Positions 17,929-32,128 of a DNA stretch of 64,000 nt are shown in pieces. Both the position numbers and the translations under genes were made by a program. Positions within the stretch are counted from its first letter, which is position 1. Every line of letters begins with the position of its first letter. Source of the DNA: Bacteroidota bacterium (lineage in GTDB: Bacteria > Bacteroidota > Bacteroidia > UKL13-3); contig JAIYAT010000035.1 in the NCBI GenBank assembly GCA_027488905.1, positions 372,001 through 436,000 of the forward strand, in the 5' to 3' direction. Below the pieces are notes generated by a model. The model did no database searches, was not told where the DNA came from, and saw only the letters and a program-made list of their open reading frames with translations.

Positions 17929-18696
17929 TTGCAATTAAACTATAAAACATTTGGCCAAGGTCAATCTACCCTAATAATCCTTCACGGTTTCATGGGCTCC
18001 TTAGATAATTGGCAAACACTTGCTGGGAAATTTGGAGATTTTGGCAATGTAATTACCCTCGACCAAAGAAATCATGGTAAGTCGCCACATACAGATATTC
18101 ATTCCATTCCTTTGATGGTAAACGACTTAAAGCTTTTCTTGGATCAACACAAGCTTGAAACCATCTATTTAATGGGACATTCGATGGGCGGAAAGGTAGC
18201 CATGCAGTTTGCCTTAGATTTTCCAGATAAGGTAGAAAAATTGGTGGTGGTAGATATTGCACCTCGCAAGTATCACCGTGGACATGATGATGTTTTTGAA
18301 GCAATCTATGCCATAGACCTAAACAAAATTCAATCTAGAAAAGATGCAGAACTTGCCATGGAATCCCTAATGCCTGATTATGGCACAAGACAGTTTTTAC
18401 TTAAAAACCTGGACAGAAAGGAAGATGGCACCTATCAATGGAAAATGAATTTACCTGTTCTTCATACTTATTACGAGGAAATCATTCAGGAAATTGGTTC
18501 AAACCGAAAATTCTTGAACCCAATCTTGGTGATTAAAGGTGGAAAGTCTAAATACATTTCTGTGAAGGATCAAGATGACTATTTGAAACTATTTCCTAAT
18601 TATGAGATAGTTACCATTCCAAATGCTGGTCACTGGGTGCATGCAGAGCAAGCAGAATTATTTTATAACGAAGTAGTTAATTTTCTTTATCGTTAA
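17929..18696 (+). CDS. Alpha/beta hydrolase (YbfF-like esterase)
   Basis: This 255-residue cytosolic hydrolase has oxyanion motif LHGFMGS (about residues 18-24), nucleophile elbow GHSMGG (Ser about 85), an acid in the GGKSKYIS region, and catalytic His in NAGHWVHAE (about 238). It is most like the YbfF/abhydrolase-1 esterases, which act on short acyl esters or acyl-CoA; the substrate is unknown. It starts at TTG 17929, as no ATG precedes the first strand. The 3' end overlaps the convergent thioesterase gene by 20 bases. Confidence 0.88.
   Translation: MQLNYKTFGQGQSTLIILHGFMGSLDNWQTLAGKFGDFGNVITLDQRNHGKSPHTDIHSIPLMVNDLKLFLDQHKLETIYLMGHSMGGKVAMQFALDFPDKVEKLVVVDIAPRKYHRGHDDVFEAIYAIDLNKIQSRKDAELAMESLMPDYGTRQFLLKNLDRKEDGTYQWKMNLPVLHTYYEEIIQEIGSNRKFLNPILVIKGGKSKYISVKDQDDYLKLFPNYEIVTIPNAGHWVHAEQAELFYNEVVNFLYR
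18496..18505 (-). repeat. GGTTTGAACC element 6
   Basis: Exact copy in the hydrolase gene, read as Gly-Ser-Asn. A half-like TTGAACCCAA follows 8 bases later. Confidence 0.9.
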
Positions 18697-19117
18697 TTGA
18701 ATTTGCAACTTCCAGAAATTCTTTTGGAACACTTACTGTTTTTCGATCTGTATAATCAAAACAAACCATACCGGTTTTAGCTTCACAAACCACTATTCCG
18801 TTTTGGTTTGTCATTCGATACATTAAATCGAAACTTCTTTTGCCAAAATCTCCAGCACCAATTTCTATGCTTAAAACATCCCCATAAAAGCATTCAGCCT
18901 TATATACTACTGCAACATCACCCATGATTACACCAACGCCTGCAAGGTTTTTTTCAGACCAATTCCATTGGTTAAAATAGTGCATTCTTGCCTCTTGCAT
19001 GTATTCCAAATACACATGATTGGCAAGGTGGTTTCCATAGTTTAAATCTGAAATTCTTACTGGAATTTCTATTTTGAATTTAAGTTCCTCTGGAATCAAT
19101 AATTTTATTCTAGCCAT
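18677..19117 (-). CDS. Hot-dog acyl-CoA thioesterase (4HBT family)
   Basis: This 146-residue single hot-dog domain has the 4HBT N-terminal motif in the form VRISDLNYGNHLANHVYLEYMQEAR (shown in part; about residues 21-45), where the catalytic Asp of the family is in SDLNYGNH. It then has VYKAECFYGD and a CEAKTGMVCFDY strand. Such proteins hydrolyse acyl-CoA thioesters; chain preference cannot be read. It is adjacent to the deiodinase-like gene (1-base gap) and is probably the last gene of that operon. Confidence 0.85.
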   Translation of the reverse strand: MARIKLLIPEELKFKIEIPVRISDLNYGNHLANHVYLEYMQEARMHYFNQWNWSEKNLAGVGVIMGDVAVVYKAECFYGDVLSIEIGAGDFGKRSFDLMYRMTNQNGIVVCEAKTGMVCFDYTDRKTVSVPKEFLEVANSINDKEN

Positions 19118-19118
19118 A

Positions 19119-19778
19119 TTATTCGTAAAAAACTGAAATTTCGTATAAAGATTTTTTTGTGATAGTTGGTACCAAGGCGGCCTTTTTAGGAAACCCTACT
19201 GGCAAGACCAAATAAGGTCTTTCATTGGCTGGCCGATTTAATATTTGGGTTAAAAAACCCATTGGACTTGGTGTGTGAGTTAAGGTAACTAAACCCGCTT
19301 GATGTATTGCCTGAATAAGAAATCCGCAAGCAATTCCAACTGATTCCTGCGAATAGTAGGTATTAGATTTTACATTATTTTCGAGTTCATATGCCTTTCT
19401 AAAAATAATTATTAACCAAGGAGCCTCCTCCAAAAATGGCTTTTGCCAATCCGTTCCAAGTGGAGCCAAATCCTTTAGCCACTCTTCACTCATTCTATTT
19501 TCATAACTTTCCCTTTCTTCCTTTTCGGCTGCGGTGCGTATTTGTGTTTTTATTGCTTTATTAGAAACAGCACAAAACGTCCAAGGCTGCTTGTTAGCGC
19601 CGCTAGGCGCTGTGCCTGCACTCATTATGATTTTTTCAATTAATTCTTTCGGAACTACTTCAGAAGAAATATCTCTTACCGACCTTCTTTTCTTTAGTTC
19701 TTGATAATTTGCCTCAGCTAACCCAAGCATTTCAGAAGCCGCTTTAGGATTAAAATCAAGTGGGTTGAACCTATACAT
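19119..19778 (-). CDS. Iodotyrosine-deiodinase-like nitroreductase-fold flavoprotein
   Basis: This 219-residue FMN enzyme starts with the FMN phosphate-binding RRSVRDIS (about residues 31-38) and AGTAPSGANKQPWTF. It then has the substrate lid characteristic of iodotyrosine deiodinases: a Glu and Tyr in REERESYENRM-like sequence, then WLKDLAPLGTDWQKPFLE with the conserved Lys. The C-terminus has LTHTPSPMGFL, RPANERPYLVLPVGFP and TKKSL. Those lid residues hold the amino acid zwitterion of halotyrosine in characterised members, including a Bacteroidota one. Reductive dehalogenation of halotyrosine is therefore likely. It overlaps the upstream receptor gene by 8 bases. Confidence 0.85.
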   Translation of the reverse strand: MYRFNPLDFNPKAASEMLGLAEANYQELKKRRSVRDISSEVVPKELIEKIIMSAGTAPSGANKQPWTFCAVSNKAIKTQIRTAAEKEERESYENRMSEEWLKDLAPLGTDWQKPFLEEAPWLIIIFRKAYELENNVKSNTYYSQESVGIACGFLIQAIHQAGLVTLTHTPSPMGFLTQILNRPANERPYLVLPVGFPKKAALVPTITKKSLYEISVFYE

Positions 19779-20574
19779 ACATTTCGCTCATTAAGTTTTT
19801 AAAGTATTTTACACTTTTCAATAACCTGCTACCATACCAGCTAAAAAGTTCTCCGTCTACAAGTAAAACCTTAGCCTTTGGCAATAGTGACTTTAATTCT
19901 TCAATATGTTTTTCCTTAAATGGATAAGGTTCTGATGACAACAAAATAACTTCAGGATTTAGTTCTATTAAACTTTCATTTGTTATTTGAGGATACCTTC
20001 CAATTTCATTAGAGACAACATTAATCAAGCCCATTCTTTTCAGCATATCATTTATAAAGGTGTCGCTGCCAGCCGCCATCCAAGGGGCACGCCAAATAAG
20101 GTATAGGCATTTTTTAGGTTCGGTTTGAACCAATAAGGTTTCAAAATCAGAGGTGAGGCTTGCACATATTTCTTTTGCTTTCGTCTCCTTTTCAACTAAG
20201 AAGCCTACTTGTTCAATCATCATTAGTGCATCCTTTAAATCTTTAATATCACTCATCCAAACCGGAAATTCAAGCATAAGTTCTTCTATTTGCTGCTGTT
20301 CGTTTTCCTCTTTATTACCTATGATTAAATCGGGTTGAAGACTTTTTATCAAGTCCAATTTAAGCTTTTTTGTCCCTCCTATTTTTGTTTTGCTCTCATG
20401 CATTTCTTTGGGGTGAATGCAAAAAATAGTTTGGGCAATTAGCTCCTCGTTCAATCCCAAATCATATAACAATTCTGTTTGTGAGGGCACTAGACTTATG
20501 ATGCGTTTGGGTGGAAAAGCATAATTAATGCTTCTGCCCATCATGTCTACAACTGCTTTTTTCTCGGATATCAT
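19771..20574 (-). CDS. Helical-backbone metal receptor (BtuF/TroA-like), no signal peptide
   Basis: This 267-residue protein has the class III periplasmic binding fold: RIISLVPSQTELLYDLGL (about residues 24-41), IGGTKKLKLDLIKSLQPDLII, a long backbone helix near 110-140, then WRAPWMAAGSDTFINDML and VILLSSEPYPF. It resembles cobalamin/haem/iron-chelate receptors such as BtuF. No signal peptide or lipobox precedes the fold, so it appears cytoplasmic, and no permease or ATPase gene is adjacent. The start is ATG 20574; ATG 20544 (MMGRS) is an alternative. It is the first gene of an operon with the deiodinase-like flavoprotein and thioesterase. Confidence 0.8.
   Translation of the reverse strand: MISEKKAVVDMMGRSINYAFPPKRIISLVPSQTELLYDLGLNEELIAQTIFCIHPKEMHESKTKIGGTKKLKLDLIKSLQPDLIIGNKEENEQQQIEELMLEFPVWMSDIKDLKDALMMIEQVGFLVEKETKAKEICASLTSDFETLLVQTEPKKCLYLIWRAPWMAAGSDTFINDMLKRMGLINVVSNEIGRYPQITNESLIELNPEVILLSSEPYPFKEKHIEELKSLLPKAKVLLVDGELFSWYGSRLLKSVKYFKNLMSEMYV
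20122..20131 (+). repeat. GGTTTGAACC element 7
   Basis: Exact copy in the metal-receptor gene, read as Val-Gln-Thr; flanks gttc and aata. Confidence 0.9.
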
Positions 20575-20647
20575 GAAGCAAAAAAGCGAAAGAAAACGAA
20601 ATATCCCAAAGGCTATTATCTTTGCAAGCGTTTATCTAAGAAAATTT

Positions 20648-21358
20648 ATGGGAAGAGTATTCGAAAAACGGAAACATAAGATGTTTGCACGTTATGCAAA
20701 AATGAGTCAGGCCTTTACCAAAATTGGCAAAGAAATTTCTATTGCAGTAAAAATTGGTGGAGCAGATCCTGAGGGTAATTCAAGGTTAAGAGCCATTATT
20801 ACAAATGCCAAATCAATCAACATGCCTAAGGCAAATATTGATGCTGCCATTCAAAGAGCCTCAAGTAAAACTGAGAAAGAAATGGAAGAAATTGCTTACG
20901 AAGGAAAAGGTCCACATGGCGTGGCAATGATTATTGAAACAGCCACGGATAACCCAACTAGAACCATTGCTAACCTCAGAGCACATATGAACAAAACAGG
21001 TGGTCAGATGTTAAACTCTGGCAGTCTTGATTTCTTATTTGAAAGAAAAGGAATTTTTATCATTCCGATGGAAGGCATCGATTTAGAGTCATTTGAGCTA
21101 GAAATGATTGATTTTGGAATGGAGGATATGGAAGAAGATGGTGAAGGAAATTACATTATCACTGTTCCATTTACTGAGTTTGGTGCGATGCAAAAAGCAT
21201 TGGAAGACAATAAAATCGAAATTAAAAACGCTCAATTGCAACGCTTGCCAACAAATGGTGTTGAGTTAAATGAAGAGCAATTGGAGGATTTTGGCAAATT
21301 GCTAGATAGATTAGACGAAGACGATGATGTTGTTAATGTTTGGCATAATTTAAAATAA
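20648..21358 (+). CDS. YebC/PmpR-family regulator
   Basis: This 236-residue protein has the three-domain YebC layout: an N-terminal RNA/DNA-contacting region (MGRVFEKRKHKMFARYAKMSQ), the ITNAKSINMPKANIDAAIQRAS motif (described in part), and YEGKGPHGVAMIIE with acidic C-terminal domains. YebC proteins are known as transcription regulators, and more recently as factors that assist ribosomes at proline-rich stretches. Bacteroidota forms begin MGRxFE, so ATG 20648 is chosen over the upstream frame that overlaps the divergent receptor gene. The GNAT-nitrilase gene follows after 1 base. Confidence 0.94.
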   Translation: MGRVFEKRKHKMFARYAKMSQAFTKIGKEISIAVKIGGADPEGNSRLRAIITNAKSINMPKANIDAAIQRASSKTEKEMEEIAYEGKGPHGVAMIIETATDNPTRTIANLRAHMNKTGGQMLNSGSLDFLFERKGIFIIPMEGIDLESFELEMIDFGMEDMEEDGEGNYIITVPFTEFGAMQKALEDNKIEIKNAQLQRLPTNGVELNEEQLEDFGKLLDRLDEDDDVVNVWHNLK

Positions 21359-21359
21359 A

Positions 21360-22892
21360 GTGAAAACAAGGTCGTCCCGCAAACCAAAGCTTATCGAAAG
21401 ACAAGCTGAACATTCAGATTTAAAGGCAATCATTAAATTGTCTCAAATCTGCTTTCCCAAAAATGACCCATGGACCTTACCCATGCTAGAGAGTCAATTT
21501 AAGTTGTTTCCAGAAGGAATGCAAGTAATAGAATATGAGGGAGAAATTGTAGGTTCGGCCAGTAGCTTAATTATAAGTTGGGATGAATATGATGACGACC
21601 ATAGTTGGAAAGAAATTTGCGACAATGGGTTTATCACCAATCATGATGAGGAAGGTGATACATTATATGGCATTGAGGTTATGGTTCATCCAGATTACCA
21701 AGGCTTAAAAATCGGAAGGCGCTTGTATGAAATGCGCAAAGTGCTCTGTTTGGAGAAGAACCTAAAACGTATTTTAATTGGCGGTCGAGTTCCAAATTAC
21801 CATAAATATTCGAATGATTTTGGTATACGCGCCTACATAAAAAGAGTTGTAGATAAAAAAATTAAGGATCCAGTAGTTACGTTTCAACTCTCTCAAGGGT
21901 TTACCATTCAAAGAATCATAAAAGATTACTTGCCAGAAGATTTAGAAAGTGAAGGGTATGCCTTATCGTTGGAATGGATTAATTTGGATTATGTTCCAGA
22001 AATTAAAGAAAGAAGTGTATTAATGAAAAAAGTTCGTATTTGTTGCATACAATACGAACTAAGAAAAATAAGAAGCTTTAAAGAATTTGCCCAACAATGC
22101 GAGTATTTCACAGATGTGGCTTCAAATTACAAATCTGATTTCGCATTATTTCCAGAGCTTTTTACCACTCAACTTTTATCGTTGCATGAATACAAAAGTA
22201 TGAGTCCTGAGGACAGTATCCGTAAAATTGATGAATATACTGATGATTATATTGAGTTGTTTTCACGCCTTTCCATGGAATACAACATCAATATTATTGC
22301 TGGAACGCATTTACAAGTAGAAGGAGAAAATCTGTATAATATTTCTTACTTGTTTAAACGTGATGGCACCTATGAAAAGCAGTATAAAATTCATATTACT
22401 AGCAACGAAAGCAAGTGGTGGGGCGTTAAACCAGGAAATGAAATTAAAACCTTTAATACAGATTGTGGCAGGGTTGCAATTAATATTTGCTATGATGTAG
22501 AATTCCCAGAAATGGCAAGAATTGCATGTAACAAAGGCGCCAAAATCATTTTTGTACCATTTTCTACAGACGAAAAGCATGGACATTTAAGGGTGAAAAT
22601 TTGTGCTCAAGCTAGGGCAGTTGAAAACCAAGTTTTTGTGGCAACTGCTGGAACAATTGGAAATATTCCATCGGTGGATAATATGGATATTAACTATGCC
22701 CAATCTGGAATTTATACACCTTCAGACTTTGCCTTTCCACCAGATGCTATTGCTGGGGAATGCAGCACAAATATCGAAACGGTAGTAATTGCAGACTTAG
22801 ACCTTGCCGCTTTAGAAAGGGCTAGAAATACTGGTACTGTGCTAAATTGGAAAGACAGAAGGAATGATATGTATGATGTTTTGGAAAAGTAA
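21360..22892 (+). CDS. GNAT acetyltransferase-carbon-nitrogen hydrolase fusion
   Basis: This 510-residue two-domain protein has residues about 12-210 as a GNAT fold (IKLSQICFP at its start; acetyl-CoA loop in HPDYQGLKIGRRLYE) and about 222-505 as a nitrilase-superfamily amidase. The amidase has the full Glu-Lys-Cys triad: Glu in LFPELFTTQ, Lys in YEKQYKIHIT and Cys in INICYDVEFPE. The nitrilase half often acts on omega-amides or carbamoyl-amines. The fusion suggests two steps on one substrate, or N-acyl transfer followed by deamidation, but the substrate is unknown. It starts at GTG 21360, coupled to yebC. Confidence 0.92.
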   Translation: MKTRSSRKPKLIERQAEHSDLKAIIKLSQICFPKNDPWTLPMLESQFKLFPEGMQVIEYEGEIVGSASSLIISWDEYDDDHSWKEICDNGFITNHDEEGDTLYGIEVMVHPDYQGLKIGRRLYEMRKVLCLEKNLKRILIGGRVPNYHKYSNDFGIRAYIKRVVDKKIKDPVVTFQLSQGFTIQRIIKDYLPEDLESEGYALSLEWINLDYVPEIKERSVLMKKVRICCIQYELRKIRSFKEFAQQCEYFTDVASNYKSDFALFPELFTTQLLSLHEYKSMSPEDSIRKIDEYTDDYIELFSRLSMEYNINIIAGTHLQVEGENLYNISYLFKRDGTYEKQYKIHITSNESKWWGVKPGNEIKTFNTDCGRVAINICYDVEFPEMARIACNKGAKIIFVPFSTDEKHGHLRVKICAQARAVENQVFVATAGTIGNIPSVDNMDINYAQSGIYTPSDFAFPPDAIAGECSTNIETVVIADLDLAALERARNTGTVLNWKDRRNDMYDVLEK

Positions 22893-22897
22893 ATAGA

Positions 22898-24001
22898 TTA
22901 ATAGATTGGAATTTCGACAACAAAAGAGCTCCCTTTTCCAAGTTCACTAACCACTGATATTTTACATCCTAAGGCTTCTAGCTTCGATTTAACCAAAAAC
23001 AAACTCAGTCCTCTGCCAGTAGATTGTTTATGAAAACGTTGGTAAAACCCAAATAATCTGTCTTTAAGCCTTGAAGTTTCTATACCTAAACCATTATCGA
23101 TTACTTCGATGTATAATTTACTTGCATTTTCAAACGCCCTAATTTTTAGCTCTAAAGGTTGAGATTCCTTGCAATAATGAATTGCATTTTTGATTAATGT
23201 ATTAAGTGTAAACTGTAAGATAAATTTTGGGAAGTTAAGTGTCAATTTTTCATTTATTTCTAAAAGGACATTAGCATTTACCCTATCTAATTCGCTTTTA
23301 AACTCATTTATTTCGGTTTGAACCAACTCCTCAAGTGCAATATTATCAGATTGAAGAGGGTCTAACTTCCTTGATTCAATTCCAAGTATAAGATCGGTAA
23401 GCGTTTGATTTAGATTTTCAGAACTTATTCTTAAGCCTTTGATTAAATCTTCATCATGACGTTTTTCTACTTCAAGTAAACTGGTAATGGCAAGAATATT
23501 TGTAAGTGGCCCACGCATGTTATGGGTGGTTATGAAATTGTACTTTTCTAGATTTTCATTCATTCGGCACAGTTCCAAAATAATTTGATTCTTTTCCTCT
23601 ATAGCCCTTTTAAGTGGTGTTATATCTCTGGAGTTAATGATAAAGGCATTTAATTCAGGATTATTTAACTGGTTGTTTCCAAAAGCCTCAAGATGCAAAT
23701 AAGAGCCATCTTCATTTCTAAACCTAAACTCAACTTTTTCGGCAGCACCTTCTATTTGCGTCGCCCTGCTAAAGGTTTCCGCTACAAATTTCACATCATC
23801 TGGATGCACCATTTCCAATATGTTCTTGCCTTTAAGTTGATTTTCTGCATAACTCATCTTTTGTTTTGTAGAACTGCTATGAAAAGTAATTTCTCCAGCT
23901 TTATTTACAATAGTAATAATATCACGACTATTGAGTAAAATTAACTTAAATGCATCTTCTGAAATGATACCACCATTATTGAGTATATGATTCTTTTCCA
24001 T
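22898..24001 (-). CDS. PAS-domain sensor histidine kinase
   Basis: This soluble 367-residue kinase has a PAS domain (about residues 15-130, including MVHPDDVKF and FRNEDGSYLHLEAFG of the PAS-PAC type) and a short coiled coil. Its dimerisation domain has phospho-acceptor His in FITTHNMRGPLTN (about 158), and its HATPase domain has NTLIKNAIHYC, DNGLGIE and GRGLSLFLVK. There are no membrane helices. It lies 13 bases downstream of the membrane P-loop ATPase, so the pair probably forms an operon. No response regulator or receiver domain accompanies it. Confidence 0.9.
   Translation of the reverse strand: MEKNHILNNGGIISEDAFKLILLNSRDIITIVNKAGEITFHSSSTKQKMSYAENQLKGKNILEMVHPDDVKFVAETFSRATQIEGAAEKVEFRFRNEDGSYLHLEAFGNNQLNNPELNAFIINSRDITPLKRAIEEKNQIILELCRMNENLEKYNFITTHNMRGPLTNILAITSLLEVEKRHDEDLIKGLRISSENLNQTLTDLILGIESRKLDPLQSDNIALEELVQTEINEFKSELDRVNANVLLEINEKLTLNFPKFILQFTLNTLIKNAIHYCKESQPLELKIRAFENASKLYIEVIDNGLGIETSRLKDRLFGFYQRFHKQSTGRGLSLFLVKSKLEALGCKISVVSELGKGSSFVVEIPIY
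23315..23324 (+). repeat. GGTTTGAACC element 8
   Basis: Exact copy in the PAS kinase gene, read as Val-Gln-Thr; flanks tttc and aact. Confidence 0.9.
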
Positions 24002-24014
24002 AATTCCTCTGCAA

Positions 24015-25004
24015 CTATAGCGCTAAAATAATTAAATCTCGATACTCATCGGGTTGTGGTTTAAGATAATTTTCCCATGCCACTAGGTCCCCAGCACCAA
24101 TTATCCAAATTACATTTTTACGCCATAACATATCCTTTACGTCTAAAATCTGAGCATCTATTTGGGCTACCTTCATAAATTCATACCCCGCAGGGTCGGA
24201 TGGATTTATATCATCAATGACCATAGTATCAGCAACCTTCCAATCCCAATAACTAGGACCAGGAATTTGATTTGGTGCAGATTTTATATCTGAAAGAAAT
24301 TTTGCAAAAGAAACGAATGCACAGGTTTTCCAATGAAAAGCCCTTTCAGTTGCCATTCCAATAGCTAGTGTTGTTTTGCCAACATGAGCTGGTCCATAAA
24401 CAAGGACATGAGTTGGTTTATCCTTTACTTTAATGAAACTTTCAACAGCCTTAACATTTTGCTGATGCATAAGGTGAGGCCATTGTGAAAGCCTACATTG
24501 CCATGGAAACCTTGCTTGCTGAAGGTAAATTTTAACAGGATACCAATAACAAAAGGCTATCATAAGGTAAATCCCTACAGCTATTAAGGCCCATTTTAAT
24601 GAGAAATTTGCATCAAAATATTGGTAAAAACATAAAGCGCCAAGCCAAAAAAAGCAAATATCAGTAAAGGTATCGAAAAAGATGTTTAACCATTTTGGTT
24701 GAAAGGTGTATTGACTTTGTGTATTGAGTTTAACTTTAGCACTATCCTTTTTGAATAATAACGGTCCTAAAAAGTTATAGCCTTCAAAACTAGTCCATAC
24801 AATACCACTAAAATATGCTGCAATATGGTATTGTTCAAAGCAAGTAATATGGTAAAAAATCAAAGCCAATAAAGCTCCTAAAGTAAAATGCCCTAATTGG
24901 TTAGCGAGCCAAGCATAGCTCAAACTAACCCCTCTATATGAGTCCTTTCCAATTAAATCATCTTTAAGCTGGGTTAAAATATCTTTAAGGCTAAGTTTTT
25001 TCAT
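24015..25004 (-). CDS. Membrane-anchored P-loop ATPase, unfamiliar architecture
   Basis: This 329-residue protein joins an N-terminal membrane region of about four hydrophobic helices (roughly residues 38-60, 65-80, 115-135 and 140-160) to a C-terminal nucleotide-binding domain. The latter has Walker A GPAHVGKTTLA (about residues 207-217), Walker B TMVIDDINP (about 266-274) and a sensor-like strand VIWIIGAG followed by DL (about 303-312). The ATPase part looks like a DnaA/IstB-type or STAND-like AAA fold, but I do not recognise the whole protein. A His/Trp/Gln-rich linker (PWQCRLSQWPHLMHQ) joins the two. ATG 25004 is preferred to the upstream ATG at 25061. It is upstream of, and probably co-transcribed with, the PAS kinase; I infer a membrane signalling or remodelling role only from that context. 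Confidence 0.7.
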   Translation of the reverse strand: MKKLSLKDILTQLKDDLIGKDSYRGVSLSYAWLANQLGHFTLGALLALIFYHITCFEQYHIAAYFSGIVWTSFEGYNFLGPLLFKKDSAKVKLNTQSQYTFQPKWLNIFFDTFTDICFFWLGALCFYQYFDANFSLKWALIAVGIYLMIAFCYWYPVKIYLQQARFPWQCRLSQWPHLMHQQNVKAVESFIKVKDKPTHVLVYGPAHVGKTTLAIGMATERAFHWKTCAFVSFAKFLSDIKSAPNQIPGPSYWDWKVADTMVIDDINPSDPAGYEFMKVAQIDAQILDVKDMLWRKNVIWIIGAGDLVAWENYLKPQPDEYRDLIILAL

Positions 25005-25115
25005 GAGGTAAAAATAAATAATGCCCAAGGTTTTGTTTCTTCCATTTAATAAGTAAAACAATACACCTAAACATTCAAATCAACTTTATCCATTATTCAA
25101 AATCGGTTTTCTGAT

Positions 25116-25123
25116 TATATTTG
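25116..25123 (+). promoter_or_regulatory. -7 promoter box of hppD
   Basis: TATATTTG matches TAnnTTTG. Being only 4 bases from the first in-frame ATG (25128), it argues that translation starts at the second ATG, 25152. Confidence 0.45.
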
Positions 25124-25151
25124 CCAAATGGAAAGAAATGAAAAAGAAATT

Positions 25152-26252
25152 ATGTCAGAAACTTCTGATTTTTTACCTTTATTGGGAACAGACTATATAG
25201 AACTTTGGGTTGGTAACGCAAAACAAGCTGCACACTACTATAAAACAGCTTTTGGCTTTCAATGTCTTGCTTATGCTGGACCAGAAACTGGAGTAAAAGA
25301 TAGAACTTCATATGTTTTGGTTCAAAACAAAATGAGATTGATGTTAACCTCTCCATTACATTCCAACTCAGAAATAGCAGAACACCACAAAAAACACGGA
25401 GATGGCGTAAAGGTGCTTGCTTTATGGGTTGATGATGCTTATGACGCATTCGAGCAAACCACAAAAAGAGGAGGAAAACCTTACCTTCAGCCCACAACTT
25501 TAACAGATGCCGATGGCGAAGTTAGAATGAGTGGAATTCACACTTATGGTGAAGTGGTTCATTTGTTTATAGAAAGAAAAAATTATAATGGTGCATTCAT
25601 GCCTGGGTTCAAAAAACTAGAAAGTACTTATAATCCAGAACCGGTTGGTTTATTGTATGTTGACCATTGCGTAGGGAATGTTGGTTGGAACCAAATGAAT
25701 CCTTGGGTAAAGTTTTATGAAGAGGTAATGGGTTTCAAAAATATTTTATCTTTTGATGACAATGATATCTCTACTGAATATTCAGCCTTAATGAGTAAGG
25801 TTATGAGTAATGGAAACGGATATGTTAAGTTTCCTATCAATGAGCCGGCTGAAGGAAAAAGAAAATCGCAAGTTGAAGAATATTTAGAATTCTATGAAGG
25901 CGAAGGAACACAACACATTGCTATTGCTACACAGGATATAGTTTCTACTGTTAAACAATTAATGGCTAGAGGTGTAGAGTTTTTAAAAGTGCCAAATACG
26001 TATTATGATGACTTATTAGACCGAGTTGGCCCTATTGAAGAGGATTTAGAACCTTTGAGAGAACTAGGAATTTTAGTGGATAGAGATGATGAAGGCTATT
26101 TGTTACAGTTGTTTACCAAACCTGTGGAAGATAGACCAACCATGTTCTATGAGATTATCCAACGAAAAGGTGCAAAATCTTTTGGAAAGGGTAATTTCAA
26201 AGCACTTTTCGAAGCAATTGAAAGGGAGCAAGAACTTAGAGGAAATCTTTGA
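25152..26252 (+). CDS. hppD: 4-Hydroxyphenylpyruvate dioxygenase
   Basis: HppD converts 4-hydroxyphenylpyruvate to homogentisate, the substrate of HmgA (1002-2159). The 366-residue protein has two vicinal-oxygen-chelate halves. The catalytic C-terminal half holds the iron ligands His (YVDHCVGNV, about residue 175), His (EGTQHIAIA, about 258) and Glu (TMFYEIIQRKGA, about 338), with the PNTYYD segment near the active site. ATG 25128 is in frame, but 25152 is chosen because it matches the usual family start and leaves room for the -7 box. The gene is monocistronic. Confidence 0.96.
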   Translation: MSETSDFLPLLGTDYIELWVGNAKQAAHYYKTAFGFQCLAYAGPETGVKDRTSYVLVQNKMRLMLTSPLHSNSEIAEHHKKHGDGVKVLALWVDDAYDAFEQTTKRGGKPYLQPTTLTDADGEVRMSGIHTYGEVVHLFIERKNYNGAFMPGFKKLESTYNPEPVGLLYVDHCVGNVGWNQMNPWVKFYEEVMGFKNILSFDDNDISTEYSALMSKVMSNGNGYVKFPINEPAEGKRKSQVEEYLEFYEGEGTQHIAIATQDIVSTVKQLMARGVEFLKVPNTYYDDLLDRVGPIEEDLEPLRELGILVDRDDEGYLLQLFTKPVEDRPTMFYEIIQRKGAKSFGKGNFKALFEAIEREQELRGNL

Positions 26253-26345
26253 TTTTAGGGCTTTACACCTTCTTGTTTTTTACAATCTTTACTTCAAGTT
26301 TTCTTTAACATAAGGAAACAAACTATTTTTACTATTTTCGCGCCA

Positions 26346-28133
26346 ATGGACCATATTAGGAATTTTTGCATTATTGCACATATTGATCACGGGAAAAGTA
26401 CACTTGCAGACAGGTTGCTTGAATACACAAACACAACCTCAAAGCGTGAAATGCAAGCACAGGTTTTAGATGATATGGACCTGGAAAGAGAAAGAGGGAT
26501 TACCATTAAAAGTCATGCTATCCAAATGGATTACAGCTTGGATGGAAAAAAATATACGCTAAATCTGATTGACACACCAGGGCACGTTGATTTTAGTTAT
26601 GAGGTTTCAAGATCAATTGCAGCTTGCGATGGAGCCCTATTAATTGTTGACTCTAGTCAAGGAATACAAGCCCAAACAATTTCAAATTTATACCTTGCTA
26701 TTGACCAAGGATTAGAGATCATTCCAATTCTCAATAAAATTGATTTACCTCACTCAATGCCTGAAGAGGTTAGTGACCAAATCATTGATTTAATAGGCTG
26801 CGATTATACAGATATCTTAAGAGCTTCTGGTAAAACAGGTGCAGGCGTTCATGAAATTCTTAAAGCAATTGTTCACAGAGTTCCAGCGCCCAAAGGAAAT
26901 GCTGAGGCACCTTTAAAGGCTTTAATTTTTGATTCGGTTTTCAACTCTTTTAGAGGCATTATTGCTTATTTTAGGGTGTATGATGGCGTTATTAAAAAGG
27001 GAGACAAGGTGAAATTTATGTCTACTGGCGCTGAGTACATCGCAGAAGAAGTTGGCGTATTAAGATTACAACAAGAACCAAAAGCAGAAATTAGAGCTGG
27101 AGATGTTGGGTATATTATTTCTGGTATTAAAGAAGCAAGAGAAGTTAAAGTTGGGGATACCTTAACCCACATCGACAGGCCTACAAATGAAGCTGTTAAA
27201 GGTTTTGAGGATGTTAAGCCTATGGTTTTTGCTGGTATTTACCCTGTAGATACAGAAGATTTTGAGGAATTAAGAGAAAGCATGTATAAACTGCAATTAA
27301 ATGATGCTTCTTTAACTTTTGAACCAGAGTCGTCTGCTGCGTTAGGATTTGGTTTCCGTTGCGGATTTTTAGGAATGCTGCACATGGAAATTATTCAAGA
27401 ACGTTTGGAACGTGAATTTAAAATGACCGTAATTACCACCGTTCCCAACGTAAGTTACCATGCCTACACCAATAAGGACGAAATGATTGTGGTTAACAAT
27501 CCTAGTGATTTACCTGAACCCAATTATATAGACCATGTTGAAGAGCCTTTTATAAATGCTCAAATCATTACCCATTCTGATTATGTAGGCGCCATAATGG
27601 GCCTTTGTCTTGGAAAAAGAGGAATTCTAAAAGAACAAAAATACCTAACCACCAATAGGGTTGAATTAATTTTTGATATGCCTTTAGCAGAAGTTGTGTT
27701 CGACTTTTTTGATAAACTAAAAACTATTTCAAGAGGGTATGCTTCTTTTGATTACCACCCGATTGGTTATGTGGCTTCCGACTTAGTTAAACTAGACATT
27801 TTACTTAACAAGGAACAAGTGGATGCATTGTCTGCAATTATTCATAGAGATAGAGCTTATGACTTTGGAAAAAGAATTTGTGAAAAATTAAAAGATTTAA
27901 TTCCAAGACATCAGTTCGAAATTCCCGTTCAAGCCTCAATTGGTGCCAAAGTTATTGCAAGAGAATCTATACGCGCCCTAAGAAAAGACGTTACAGCAAA
28001 ATGTTATGGAGGAGATATTTCAAGAAAACGTAAGCTCCTTGAAAAACAAAAAGAAGGTAAAAAACGCATGCGTCAAGTAGGTTCAGTTGAAATTCCTCAA
28101 TCTGCATTCATGGCTGTATTAAAACTTGACTAA
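26346..28133 (+). CDS. lepA: Elongation factor 4 (back-translocating GTPase)
   Basis: This 595-residue ribosomal GTPase has G1 AHIDHGKST (about residues 11-19), the switch region [10 protein letters not shown]3 DTPGHVDF and G4 NKIDLP. It has EF-G-like domains II, III and V and the LepA-specific C-terminal domain ending [18 protein letters not shown] (in part). EF4 remobilises stalled ribosomes. A TATTTTCG box (26333-26340) is close to the -7 consensus, 5 bases before the ATG. folD follows after 12 bases. Confidence 0.98.
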
Positions 28134-28145
28134 ACCTTTGATCCT

Positions 28146-29006
28146 ATGAAAATACTTAGCGGCTTAGATGTTTCAAAAGCACTTAAAATAGAAATAAAAG
28201 AAAAAGTAGTCGCTCTTAAAACTTCAGGCAAAAAAACTCCTCACCTCGCTGCAATTCTAGTTGGAAACGATGGTGCAAGCATGACTTATGTTGCTGCCAA
28301 AGAAAAAGATTGTCAAGAAGTAGGATTTAATTCTACCGTTTTAAAATTTGACGCAAGTATTTCTGAAGAAGATTTAATAAAGGAAGTAATTAAAATTAAT
28401 GATAATCCAGATATTGATGGCTTGATTGTCCAATTGCCCTTACCAAAACACATCAGCGAAAAAAAGATTACCGAAACTATTAGCTATAAGAAAGATGTAG
28501 ATGGCTTTCACCCAATGAATGTTGGAATGATGTTCAAAGGAATCAAAACTTTTTTGCCAGCTACTCCCTTCGGAATTATTAAGATGTTAGCTTATTATAA
28601 CATCGAAACTTCTGGTAAACATTGTGTAATCATTGGTAGAAGTGATATTGTAGGAAAACCAATGAGTGCCTTAATGTTACAGCAAAATTGTACTGTCACA
28701 GTTTGCCATAGCAAAACTCCTGATGTGAGTGTATTCACAAAACAAGCAGATATTATCATTGCCGCAGTGGGAATGCCAAATTATCTAACTGGAGAAATGG
28801 TAAAAGAAGACGCGGTAGTGATAGACGTTGGCATAACACGTGTGGACGATGCTAGTAATAAAAACGGCTATAAATTAGTTGGTGATGTTTATTTCGAATC
28901 TGTTGCCCCAAAATGCAGTTGGATAACACCAGTTCCAGGCGGTGTTGGGCCAATGACAAGAGTTGGTTTATTGCTAAACACTTTAGAAGCTATAAACTCA
29001 AAGTAG
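28146..29006 (+). CDS. folD: Bifunctional methylenetetrahydrofolate dehydrogenase/cyclohydrolase
   Basis: FolD interconverts 5,10-methylene-, methenyl- and 10-formyl-tetrahydrofolate for purine and formyl-Met synthesis. The 286-residue protein has the catalytic YxxxK (TYVAAKEKDC, about residues 49-58), VQLPLPKHI, KDVDGFHPMN, NADP-binding VIGRSDIVGKPMS and the C-terminal TPVPGGVGPMT. It is co-directional with lepA. A GGTTTGAACC element begins 3 bases after its stop. Confidence 0.97.
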   Translation: MKILSGLDVSKALKIEIKEKVVALKTSGKKTPHLAAILVGNDGASMTYVAAKEKDCQEVGFNSTVLKFDASISEEDLIKEVIKINDNPDIDGLIVQLPLPKHISEKKITETISYKKDVDGFHPMNVGMMFKGIKTFLPATPFGIIKMLAYYNIETSGKHCVIIGRSDIVGKPMSALMLQQNCTVTVCHSKTPDVSVFTKQADIIIAAVGMPNYLTGEMVKEDAVVIDVGITRVDDASNKNGYKLVGDVYFESVAPKCSWITPVPGGVGPMTRVGLLLNTLEAINSK

Positions 29007-29009
29007 CTC

Positions 29010-29019
29010 GGTTTGAACC
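29010..29019 (+). repeat. GGTTTGAACC element 9
   Basis: Exact copy in the short convergent gap between folD and the fructosamine-kinase-like gene; one of two fully intergenic copies. Confidence 0.9.
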
Positions 29020-29030
29020 AAAAAATGTAA

Positions 29031-29903
29031 TTACTTGACCCATTTATTCAAAAGTGCTTGAATACTTGGAAAATAAGCTTGTCCATAATTGTTAAAATGC
29101 ACTAGATGGTAATACATTTTACAAAAATCTAATCTTATTTCCCAATCAGATTGCAAAGGATAAACTGATTGGTAAGCTTCATAAAATTCCATAGGAAAAC
29201 TTCCCACCATTTTAGTCATTGCTAAATCCATTTCTCTGTGACCAAAATATACAGACGGATTTAATAAACAAGGAGCTCCTTCTGCATTTGAAATAACATG
29301 TTCTTTCCAAAAATCACCGTGCAATAAGGAAGGTGGTTCTTCTGGAAATGCAAATTCTACAAACTCAATGAATCGTTCGAATAAACGCATCGTTTCTTGA
29401 GAAAGATGGTACTTATCAGCAACAACTTTTATGTTATTTAACAATCTGTACTTAATAAAGAACTCACCCCAATTAGACATTCTATGGTTAATTTGGGTGC
29501 ATTGACGTAAATAATTATCCTCTGAATACCCAAAATACCTGTTAGAAATTTTATGTTGCTTTGCCAAACCTTCTCCAAGTAAGGCATAAAAATCTTTGTG
29601 AGGGGCGGTTGACTCTATATATTCTAAAACAAAAAAGGTATTTAAACCCAATTCTTGAACACCTATTGGTTTACAAACATCTAAACAATCAGCACTTTTT
29701 AATTCCAATAATCCATTTTTCTCCTTTTCAAAATACCTTGGATACTGTTTAATCGAATGGCATTTAACATAAAACACTCCTTTGTCAGACACAACTTTAT
29801 AGGACTGATTAACCTCACCCCCACTTAAATGGTGTATAGAATAAACCTTTACGGCTTGATTCAGTAATTTTTCTAATACTATTTGAAACAGCGTTGCGTC
29901 CAT
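29031..29903 (-). CDS. Fructosamine-kinase-family protein with altered catalytic residues
   Basis: This 290-residue protein has the fructosamine/ketosamine-3-kinase fold, a protein-kinase relative: SGGEVNQSYKV (about residues 27-37), the ATP-binding Lys in FYVKCH, FFVLEYIES hinge, and the terminal LVHFNNYGQAYF. The catalytic loop is LLHGDFWKEH instead of HGDLWSGN, so the metal-binding Asn is His. The DPA motif after it reads LLNPSVYFGHRE, so the metal-binding Asp is Asn. The Asp of HGD is kept. Family members remove glycation adducts from proteins, but these changes may reduce or redirect kinase activity. Confidence 0.85.
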   Translation of the reverse strand: MDATLFQIVLEKLLNQAVKVYSIHHLSGGEVNQSYKVVSDKGVFYVKCHSIKQYPRYFEKEKNGLLELKSADCLDVCKPIGVQELGLNTFFVLEYIESTAPHKDFYALLGEGLAKQHKISNRYFGYSEDNYLRQCTQINHRMSNWGEFFIKYRLLNNIKVVADKYHLSQETMRLFERFIEFVEFAFPEEPPSLLHGDFWKEHVISNAEGAPCLLNPSVYFGHREMDLAMTKMVGSFPMEFYEAYQSVYPLQSDWEIRLDFCKMYYHLVHFNNYGQAYFPSIQALLNKWVK

Positions 29904-29981
29904 AATTAATCAACCAAATATCAACAAGGTTTTTAATGCATACAAAAATTCTGACTTTTACAAGCCAAACCAAAAAAAGTT

Positions 29982-31349
29982 ATGGCCAAGATATTAATAA
30001 TTGACGACGAAAAAGCAATAAGGAATACACTTCGTGAAATTTTAGAATACGAAGGATACCAAATTGAAGAAGCTAGCAATGGCGAAGAAGGCATTCAAAA
30101 AATTGAATCTGAGGACTTTGACATGGTTTTATGCGATGTGAAAATGCCTAAAATGGACGGTATGGCTGTTCTTGGTAAAGTCAAGGAAATTGACGAAGAT
30201 TTGCCTATTGTAATGATTTCTGGACATGGCAATGTTGAAATGGCTGTTGAGGCAACAAAAAAAGGAGCCTATGATTTTATTGTAAAGCCACCAGATCTAA
30301 ACAAGTTATTGATTATTGTTAGAAACAGTATCGATAAAAAGGAATTGGTAGTTGAAACCAAGGTACTAAGAAGAAGGGCCTCAAAAACCAGAGATATCAT
30401 TGGAGAGTCTCCAGCAATTAAGAATATCTTAGACACCATAGACAAAGTTGCTCCTACAGATGCTAGGGTGTTAATAACAGGTGATAATGGAACAGGAAAA
30501 GAACTTGTTGCCAGATGGATTCATGAAAAGAGCATGCGCTCGAAACAAGCCTTGATTGAAGTAAATTGTGCGGCTATTCCAACTGAATTAATAGAAAGTG
30601 AATTGTTTGGTCACGAAAAAGGCGCCTTTACTTCTGCTATTAAACAACGCATTGGCAAATTTGAACAAGCACACAATGGAACTATTTTTTTAGATGAAGT
30701 TGGAGACATGAGTCTTTCAGCTCAAGCCAAAGTGCTTAGAGCGCTGCAAGAGAACAAAATTACTAGAGTGGGCGGAGAAAAGGACATTGAAGTAGATGTG
30801 AGAATTATTGCAGCAACAAACAAAAACTTACTAAAAGAAATCGAAAAGGGGAATTTTAGAATGGACTTGTACCATAGGATTAGTGTAATTCTAATTCATG
30901 TTCCTTCCTTGCATGATAGAAGAGATGATATTCCTTTGTTGGCAGACAAGTTTATTAAAGAAATTTGTGAAGATGGTGGCTTACCTAAAAAATCATTTAC
31001 CCCACAAGCATTGGAAGAATTTAAAAAATTGAACTTTTCTGGAAACATTAGAGAATTAAGGAATATAGTGGAACGACTTGTAATCTTGGGTCAAACCAGA
31101 ATTACAGTTGAGGATATTCAAAAATTTGCTAGTCCAATAAATGCAAGAGACGAAGAAAAATCTATCTATGAAAGGTTTAACACACTGCAAGACTTTAAAG
31201 AATATGTAGAGCGCATTTTTATTGAAGAAAAACTTAAAAAGAATGGATGGAATGTAGCCAAGACAGCTGCTGAAATAGACATTCAAAGAAGTCACCTCTA
31301 CAATAAAATAGAAAAATATAGCCTAAAACGAGGAGAGGTAAACGACTAA
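29982..31349 (+). CDS. Sigma-54-dependent response regulator (NtrC type)
   Basis: This 455-residue regulator has a receiver domain (about residues 1-120; acidic DDE at 7-9, phospho-acceptor Asp in LCDVKMPKMDG near 53, Lys in IVKPPD) and an AAA+ domain (about 145-385). The AAA+ domain has Walker A GDNGTGKELVA, the sigma-54 contact loop GAFTSA instead of the usual GAFTGA, and Walker B GTIFLDEVGDM. A Fis-type helix-turn-helix follows (NVAKTAAEIDIQRSHLYNKI). It activates sigma-54 promoters on phosphorylation. No cognate kinase is adjacent. Its 3' end overlaps the DUF62 gene by 4 bases. Confidence 0.95.
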   Translation: MAKILIIDDEKAIRNTLREILEYEGYQIEEASNGEEGIQKIESEDFDMVLCDVKMPKMDGMAVLGKVKEIDEDLPIVMISGHGNVEMAVEATKKGAYDFIVKPPDLNKLLIIVRNSIDKKELVVETKVLRRRASKTRDIIGESPAIKNILDTIDKVAPTDARVLITGDNGTGKELVARWIHEKSMRSKQALIEVNCAAIPTELIESELFGHEKGAFTSAIKQRIGKFEQAHNGTIFLDEVGDMSLSAQAKVLRALQENKITRVGGEKDIEVDVRIIAATNKNLLKEIEKGNFRMDLYHRISVILIHVPSLHDRRDDIPLLADKFIKEICEDGGLPKKSFTPQALEEFKKLNFSGNIRELRNIVERLVILGQTRITVEDIQKFASPINARDEEKSIYERFNTLQDFKEYVERIFIEEKLKKNGWNVAKTAAEIDIQRSHLYNKIEKYSLKRGEVND

Positions 31350-32128
31350 TAAAATTCAACAATTATATTAGAACCCTTTCTTAAGCCAAGCAATTGCGCG
31401 CCTCTACCTCTATAAATAGCTATTTCAAGTAAATTCATTTCATTGAAGAGCAGCAGGTCATCGCCTTCTTGCCCTTCATGATAATGAATGCTTATTTTAT
31501 CTATATAATGCCTATTAATGTAAAAAACTTTGAAGTTTCTGCCAGCCCTTTTTTCCTCAAATAACTGTTTAGTAATATTAGTTATACCATTTTGATAATT
31601 GTCTACCAATAATATTGTGCCTATTATTTTACCATCAGGCTCAACAACAGGTGCTAAAGATTTTTTTACGTTTTGAACCAACCCAGGTTCAGCAATTCCT
31701 TCGAAACTTTTTGTTTTTAGAAATTTCTCGATAAAGGGTAAAAAAACATTCTTTTCTGCAAATAACTCATTTTCAGAATATAATTTAGGAGAAATTTTCC
31801 AAACTTCCTCTGGTGTTTCATCAAAAAGAATGCTGAATATTCCATTGTCTGCTCCTATAAAATACTTATCATTAAATTTAACTACCAAAAACTGTTTATG
31901 TAAAACTATGTTAGAATCTATTCCAAGGATATTCCAGGTTCCTGCAGGATATTCATGATAAACCTGTCTTAAATAAAATGCGGCTCCTGTAATATCAAAA
32001 GTTTCTAATTGATGGGTTAATGGAACAAATCTCGAAGTTGGTAAAAGCATGGCAGCTCTACCCTCTATTGCAGCAGCATAATGACTTGCTAAGCCATAAT
32101 CAGAAATAATGGTAATAACTGAACTCAA
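31346..32128 (-). CDS. DUF62 (SAM hydroxide adenosyltransferase-like) protein, active site diverged
   Basis: This 260-residue protein has the two-domain DUF62 layout: N-terminal IISDYGLASHYAAAIEG (family TTDFGxxDHYVA), TFDITGAAFYLRQVY, then IGADNGIFSILF, and a C-terminal beta-barrel with LVDNYQNGITNI. Archaeal enzymes of this family hydrolyse SAM with an Asp-Arg-His triad. Here the Asp is kept (GIDSNIVLHK), but the Arg position is Lys and the His in the FHGRDxF-like loop is replaced (LFAEKNVFLP). I recall similar divergence in other Bacteroidota. The biochemical role is open. It is divergent from phoH. Confidence 0.75.
   Translation of the reverse strand: MSSVITIISDYGLASHYAAAIEGRAAMLLPTSRFVPLTHQLETFDITGAAFYLRQVYHEYPAGTWNILGIDSNIVLHKQFLVVKFNDKYFIGADNGIFSILFDETPEEVWKISPKLYSENELFAEKNVFLPFIEKFLKTKSFEGIAEPGLVQNVKKSLAPVVEPDGKIIGTILLVDNYQNGITNITKQLFEEKRAGRNFKVFYINRHYIDKISIHYHEGQEGDDLLLFNEMNLLEIAIYRGRGAQLLGLRKGSNIIVEFY

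Follow-up and report, generated by a model that had tools for sequence, protein, structure and literature searches.

A membrane protein joining a putative Lipocone-type domain to a helicase-loader-type ATPase recurs beside genes for PAS proteins

Among the described systems closest to the locus reported here are those of the Lipocone superfamily, whose members, according to the main text of PMC12419801, carry a His in helix H2, a Glu in H3, an Asp in H4 and a Gly near the end of H4 and, where they are membrane proteins, are predicted to act at the outer leaflet. DUF2238 corresponds in part to the Wok family of this superfamily, while in the cpCone clade, H1 has moved behind H4, a polar residue stands six positions before the H2 His, and a second Glu follows the H3 Glu by three (PMC12419801). 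In Lipocone systems, such domains occur together with HTH regulators, and in the multi-component signalling systems presented in that text (HAAS/PadR with VanZ-1, Skillet-2, and Skillet-DUF2809), a membrane protein lies beside a separate regulator or signalling gene, as is the case here; unlike the present locus, however, those systems are listed without an ATPase fusion and without a PAS partner (PMC12419801). The terms aaa+, p-loop, dnaa, pas domain, and luxr are absent from the main text of that paper, as distinct from its supplements. No description of this fusion was found among the papers listed on Lipocone, DUF2238, DUF2585, and VanZ-like proteins or on membrane ATPases with PAS proteins, in a search of main texts that reached few subscription journals.

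The locus and its surroundings

The window, the 64,000-nucleotide stretch of a Bacteroidota contig that was analysed, contains a gene for a membrane-fused ATPase directly upstream of a gene for a PAS histidine kinase, both on the minus strand (Table 1). The original prediction described a 329-residue protein with about four membrane helices and a C-terminal ATPase, and both the translation (ATG at 25004, stop at 24015) and the hydropathy of 20 relatives agree with this description. Full-length relatives in two GTDB families and 43 invariant columns in 20 aligned sequences mark it as a real protein, beyond chance. The 13-base spacing to the kinase gene was confirmed from the sequence; the gap reads TTGCAGAGGAATT, with AGAGG ahead of the kinase ATG. 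The kinase had also been said to lack a partner response regulator, and indeed none adjoins the pair within the translated stretch 18000-32000, where a single response regulator, of the sigma-54 type (Pfam), is encoded at 29982-31349.

Table 1. Features of the ATPase-kinase locus, in positions of the window
Feature	Position	Strand	Evidence
329-aa membrane protein with C-terminal AAA+ ATPase, whole gene	24015..25004	-	Translation; 20 full-length relatives aligned
N-terminal membrane domain, residues 1-178, putatively Lipocone-like	24471..25004	-	Invariant H39, E74, N77, D111, D115, G122 in 20/20 relatives
C-terminal ATPase domain, residues 180-329, DnaC/IstB/DnaA type	24018..24467	-	PHROG, hhalign, and PDB profile matches
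13-base intergenic gap with AGAGG stretch resembling a ribosome site	24002..24014	-	Read from sequence
367-aa soluble PAS histidine kinase, H160 likely phospho-acceptor	22898..24001	-	Pfam HATPase_c and PAS above cut-off; H160 in 4/4 aligned kinases

By their Pfam matches, the pair is flanked by a convergent acetyltransferase and carbon-nitrogen hydrolase gene and by a divergent gene of the glyoxalase/dioxygenase superfamily. The GC content of the ATPase gene (0.354) equals that of the window (0.352), and a scan for promoters and terminators gave no more signals than were found in shuffled sequences. The convergent gene, at 21360-22892, encodes a 510-aa fusion of a GNAT acetyltransferase to a carbon-nitrogen hydrolase; 18 of the genus's 19 genomes carry it, with identities from about 91% upward. 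The kinase and ATPase genes stand beside it in only three of these 18 hydrolase loci (G000, G014, and G007), several of the other 15 loci ending at contig ends.

Domain make-up of the two proteins

The C-terminal half of the membrane protein carries Walker A (GPAHVGKTTLA) and Walker B (TMVIDDINP) motifs. The two Walker B aspartates, D264 and D265, are kept in 20/20 relatives, while the Walker A lysine, K210, is Lys in 18/20 and Arg in 2/20, so some members of the family may not hydrolyse ATP. Against Pfam and NCBIfam, the window's own copy gave sub-threshold P-loop matches (IstB, 20.3 against a cut-off of 24.1), and against PHROG 50, a DnaC-like helicase loader, it scored 5.1e-8. The Bac_DnaA cut-off was passed by three of six relatives scanned and that of IstB_IS21 by one of three others. 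A profile of 20 members matched DnaC (7.6e-7), DnaI (2.4e-6), and an IstB (3e-6) in the PDB, and hhalign gave the ATPase half a probability of 98% against DnaA and 97% against IstB, the comparison being made with 14 of 54 DnaA sequences and two IstB sequences. Matches of the profile to recA were set aside, as they were only sums of weak P-loop matches. Walker B is followed by 64-117 residues in the relatives, and no column in this part has Arg in more than 4/20. Judged by sequence, this half is an AAA+ domain of the DnaC/DnaI/IstB/DnaA type, of the loader or initiator kind, without a conserved arginine finger. It shares the AAA+ core, Walker A, and the D-D Walker B with the DnaC and DnaI helicase loaders, IstB, and domain III of DnaA but differs from them in being fused to a membrane domain, in lacking a conserved arginine finger, and in that no replication or transposition context was seen.

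The membrane half is the better conserved of the two (mean column identity 62% versus 52% in a 10-member set). The mean hydropathy of 20 relatives peaks at about residues 37-55, 61-82, 112-130, and 130-154, and AlphaFold2 models of the whole protein and of the N-terminal half, built from three sequences each (the window's, L010, and L011), place helices at 28-53, 59-83, 105-129, and 136-164 at low confidence (mean pLDDT 41.8 and 48.2) and with a fold too poor for a search. Invariant in 20/20 are D16, G19-K20-D21, R24, N35-Q36, H39, E74, N77, D111, D115, G122, and W154, among which H39, E74, D111 (and D115), and G122 keep the His-Glu-Asp-Gly order of the Lipocone pattern given in the main text of PMC12419801. 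DUF2238 is the sole Pfam family to score meaningfully in several N-termini, 8 of 20, all below cut-off (best 3.2e-4; one example at 18.0 bits against a cut-off of 26.4); DUF2585 was matched in 1/20, and the window's own N-terminus matched no Pfam family at E<=1. When aligned by hhalign with eight DUF2238 proteins, the N-terminal half gave an E of 0.0034 with 10 members, a value matched by 0/200 shuffles, and of 2.6e-4 with 20 members (probability 42%; 0/400 shuffles on either side). A PDB search with the N-terminal profile returned a single weak partial match (E 0.013).

Taken together, these data suggest that the membrane half is probably akin to the Lipocone superfamily without being a typical Wok or cpCone member. 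Like the Wok (DUF2238) and cpCone families, including DUF2585, it keeps His, Glu, Asp, and Gly invariant in its membrane helices, in this order, but it differs from both, as they are presented in the main text of PMC12419801, in its AAA+ fusion and in the predicted inward direction of its pocket. The two-TM N-terminal extension of the Wok type is absent, with no hydrophobic segment ahead of the His helix, and the cpCone marks are missing: a nearly invariant Leu33 stands six before the His where a polar residue would be expected, and the invariant Asn77 stands three after the Glu in place of the second Glu. In the hydropathy profile, a fourth hydrophobic helix follows the Asp helix. Charges amount to +2.2 ahead of helix 1, +3.0 in loop 84-104, and +2.45 after residue 157, compared with +0.75 and +0.05 in the short loops; on account of these charges, the N-terminus, loop 84-104, and the part after 157 are probably inside, which would place H39, E74, and D111 near the inner face. 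This orientation is at odds with the outer-leaflet orientation predicted for membrane Lipocones in the main text of PMC12419801. The original prediction knew of no family with this layout; the layout is indeed unusual, but the ATPase half turns out to be of a known kind, and the membrane half is probably of Lipocone type rather than a mere anchor. Profile-profile comparison identified a familiar AAA+ domain and no confident match to a family of settled function.

The downstream kinase scores above the Pfam cut-offs for HATPase_c (54.5 bits against 26.4), PAS_3, PAS, and PAS_9, while HisKA (12.8) is under its cut-off of 26.9. H160, within the motif THN(M/L)R.PL, is kept in 4/4 aligned kinases and is likely the phospho-acceptor, so that both features of a two-component histidine kinase, a HATPase_c domain and an acceptor His, are present by sequence. 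No 19-aa window of the protein has a mean hydropathy above 1.3. In having PAS and HATPase_c domains and the THN(M/L)R.PL motif around H160, it resembles the orphan PAS histidine kinases of Bacteroidota; it differs from them in that its best matches, five among 62 genomes of the family, all occur with the ATPase, adjacent to it in 4/5. We give little weight to this co-presence as evidence of linkage, since kinship (three of the five genomes belong to one genus) and perhaps genome size confound the value (P 2e-5) obtained for the best five of 62.

Distribution and recurrent PAS neighbours

The fusion was found in 9/64 genomes of the window's GTDB family, among them 3 of 19 of its genus (G000, G014, and G007), and in 12/244 of a second GTDB family, f34, the latter count excluding from 13 hits one DUF2238-like protein without an ATPase (G841). 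Whole-profile searches of class and phylum samples, in which scoring was limited to five candidates per genome and a member may therefore have escaped, matched 241/396 and 157/392 genomes; among the matches listed, all but five and two, respectively, covered the C-terminal half only, and full-length matches came only from these two families. The C-terminal-half matches were not accepted as family members, a script having identified a DnaA-like ORF in 54 of the loci L024-L092 and an IstB-like one in two. The tree joins the four members of the window's family that have a linked kinase into one group (88/92) and places the remaining five of that family within f34 (88/87, 90/82), with G024 on a long branch; exchange of the fusion between the two families is likely, with moderate support. 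Searches of plasmids and of viral contigs yielded no relative of the fusion, and a phage search yielded three records that match the ATPase half alone. In one of the 12 f34 genomes, G800, the ATPase gene is in two pieces in different frames (L134:6814-7951), and its PAS-LuxR neighbour is intact.

In five of the 21 ATPase loci, drawn from both families, a related PAS kinase gene follows downstream in tandem; nine have a convergent PAS-LuxR gene, and seven have neither. The tandem gaps are 13 bases in G000 and G014, 24 in G007, 91 in G024, and 59 in G883. The G024 kinase, the best match in that genome, shares 37% identity with the window's kinase across 358 residues, and that of G883, in its two pieces, 37% across 278 residues and 48% across 65; both have an extra N-terminal region, with a sub-threshold receiver match in G883. 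The G883 kinase gene (L129:4780-6588) is split by one in-frame stop, which in this draft genome may be real or a sequence error.

The PAS-LuxR neighbour, present in 9 of the 12 f34 loci, is convergent with the ATPase gene, an arrangement in which one shared transcript is impossible. Four pairs have 3' ends overlapping by 4 bases, and a fifth pair by 78; in a sixth the ends abut, and the remaining three pairs are separated by 6, 26, and 102 bases. Three of the nine proteins were scanned for domains, with GerE above cut-off in three and PAS_3 in two. Across f34, the PAS-LuxR gene occurs in 10/244 genomes (E<=1e-40) and adjoins the ATPase gene in 9/10 (hypergeometric P 3e-13, ignoring kinship), the tenth (G936, L146:7939-8673) standing alone in a genome that yielded no ATPase; at E<=1e-25, a search of 62 genomes from the window's family returned no PAS-LuxR gene. 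Distances among ATPases and among PAS-LuxR proteins are correlated over eight pairs (r 0.79, reached by 45/5000 permutations; without L133, r 0.74, 139/5000). In 13 loci, the flanks have nothing else in common except in the same-genus pair L132/L133 and for one gene shared by L128 and L131. Since two kinds of PAS output adjoin the same ATPase although the surroundings are otherwise unrelated, and since one kind almost never occurs without it, the ATPase and its PAS protein are likely a working partnership. The idea that the pair works jointly has therefore gained ground, with a related kinase downstream in 5/21 loci of two GTDB families and the other PAS protein adjacent in nine. The two genes are also neighbours in relatives; neither partner adjoins the ATPase in 7/21. 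The proposed feeding of a phosphorelay fares less well: the PAS pairing recurs, but since the usual partner in f34 is a LuxR-type regulator, a phosphorelay is not essential.

A possible mechanism and its alternatives

The best explanation of these data, to which we assign a probability of roughly 0.4, is that a PAS output protein works together with the 329-aa protein, which would be a sensor or enzyme in the membrane equipped with an ATP switch. The Lipocone-type domain would hold a lipid, with its His/Glu/Asp pocket toward the cytoplasmic ends of the helices (N-in, C-in), and the state or turnover of this lipid would set the state of the ATPase. The C-terminal domain, a pared-down AAA+ of the helicase-loader type, would bind ATP; since the arginine finger is not conserved, it would most likely be a docking switch that depends on nucleotide, rather than a ring motor. 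In its turn, the ATPase would contact and recruit or release its partner, which is the PAS histidine kinase here and the PAS-LuxR regulator in many relatives, and the partner would act on target genes. At the window locus, the kinase and ATPase would probably be made from one transcript. Both the position of the membrane protein as first in the signal path and the lipid as its input are suggested by the domains and by the Lipocone signalling systems in the main text of PMC12419801. A more specific version, in which the domain and its switch report inner-leaflet lipids to an exchangeable PAS output, kinase or LuxR, is possible and is put forward tentatively. If true, the bacterium could couple the lipid state of its membrane to ATP binding and to gene control via a PAS protein, a helicase-loader-type ATPase would be in use outside replication and transposition, and a Lipocone-like domain would have gained a cytoplasmic ATPase.

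The same proteins could instead form an enzyme and its regulator. The fusion would then be a lipid head-group enzyme controlled by its own ATPase half, and the PAS kinase or PAS-LuxR protein would sense something else and govern its expression, receiving no signal from the membrane protein. Retention of the catalytic His/Glu/Asp positions in 20/20 and the CdsA-like CTP_transf_1 gene next to the ATPase in G050 accord with this explanation, and the convergent PAS-LuxR layout suits regulation as well as it does signalling. Regulators next to the genes they control are common. We nevertheless consider an enzyme of this sort somewhat unlikely, as it leaves unexplained both the two different kinds of PAS output and the placement of the kinase 13-91 bases downstream in the same orientation. 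It is less probable still that the pair is a module for conflict or defence, a two-gene unit, patchy and exchanged, whose Lipocone domain would act as the membrane effector and whose ATPase and PAS protein would sense attack. Patchy presence (9/64 and 12/244), changing surroundings, the five members of the window's family inside f34 in the tree (88/87, 90/82), and the effector uses of Lipocone domains reported in PMC12419801 would all fit such a module, but PADLOC returned only weak P-loop matches (0.0027 and 0.051), no plasmid or viral contig matched, the three phage records match only the ATPase half, and the GC content of the ATPase gene is that of the window. The best profile matches, DnaC, DnaI, and IstB, might also point to a membrane-anchored helicase loader or transposition helper with PAS genes as chance neighbours; this we regard as very improbable, given that no transposase or replication gene directly adjoined the ATPase in the loci read by eye, that no arginine is conserved after Walker B, and that the linkage to PAS-LuxR is far beyond chance.

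As for the proposed lipid-responsive switch, relatives in which a LuxR regulator takes the place of the kinase next to the membrane protein offer a natural experiment as to which component conveys the signal. The loci in which no PAS partner adjoins the ATPase are those of G044, G035, G036, G037, G050, G312, and G796. The CTP_transf_1 phospholipid gene of G050 (L019:8099-8908) converges on the ATPase gene, a possible lipid link in one case. In G037, a PAS kinase gene three genes from the ATPase gene was not counted as a partner, being only distantly similar to the window's kinase. Matches to PAS kinases are clustered at this locus (L109, G037:C7:60000-79500), at 61068, 62853, 65244, and 67995, and the last of these is the genome's best match to the window's kinase.
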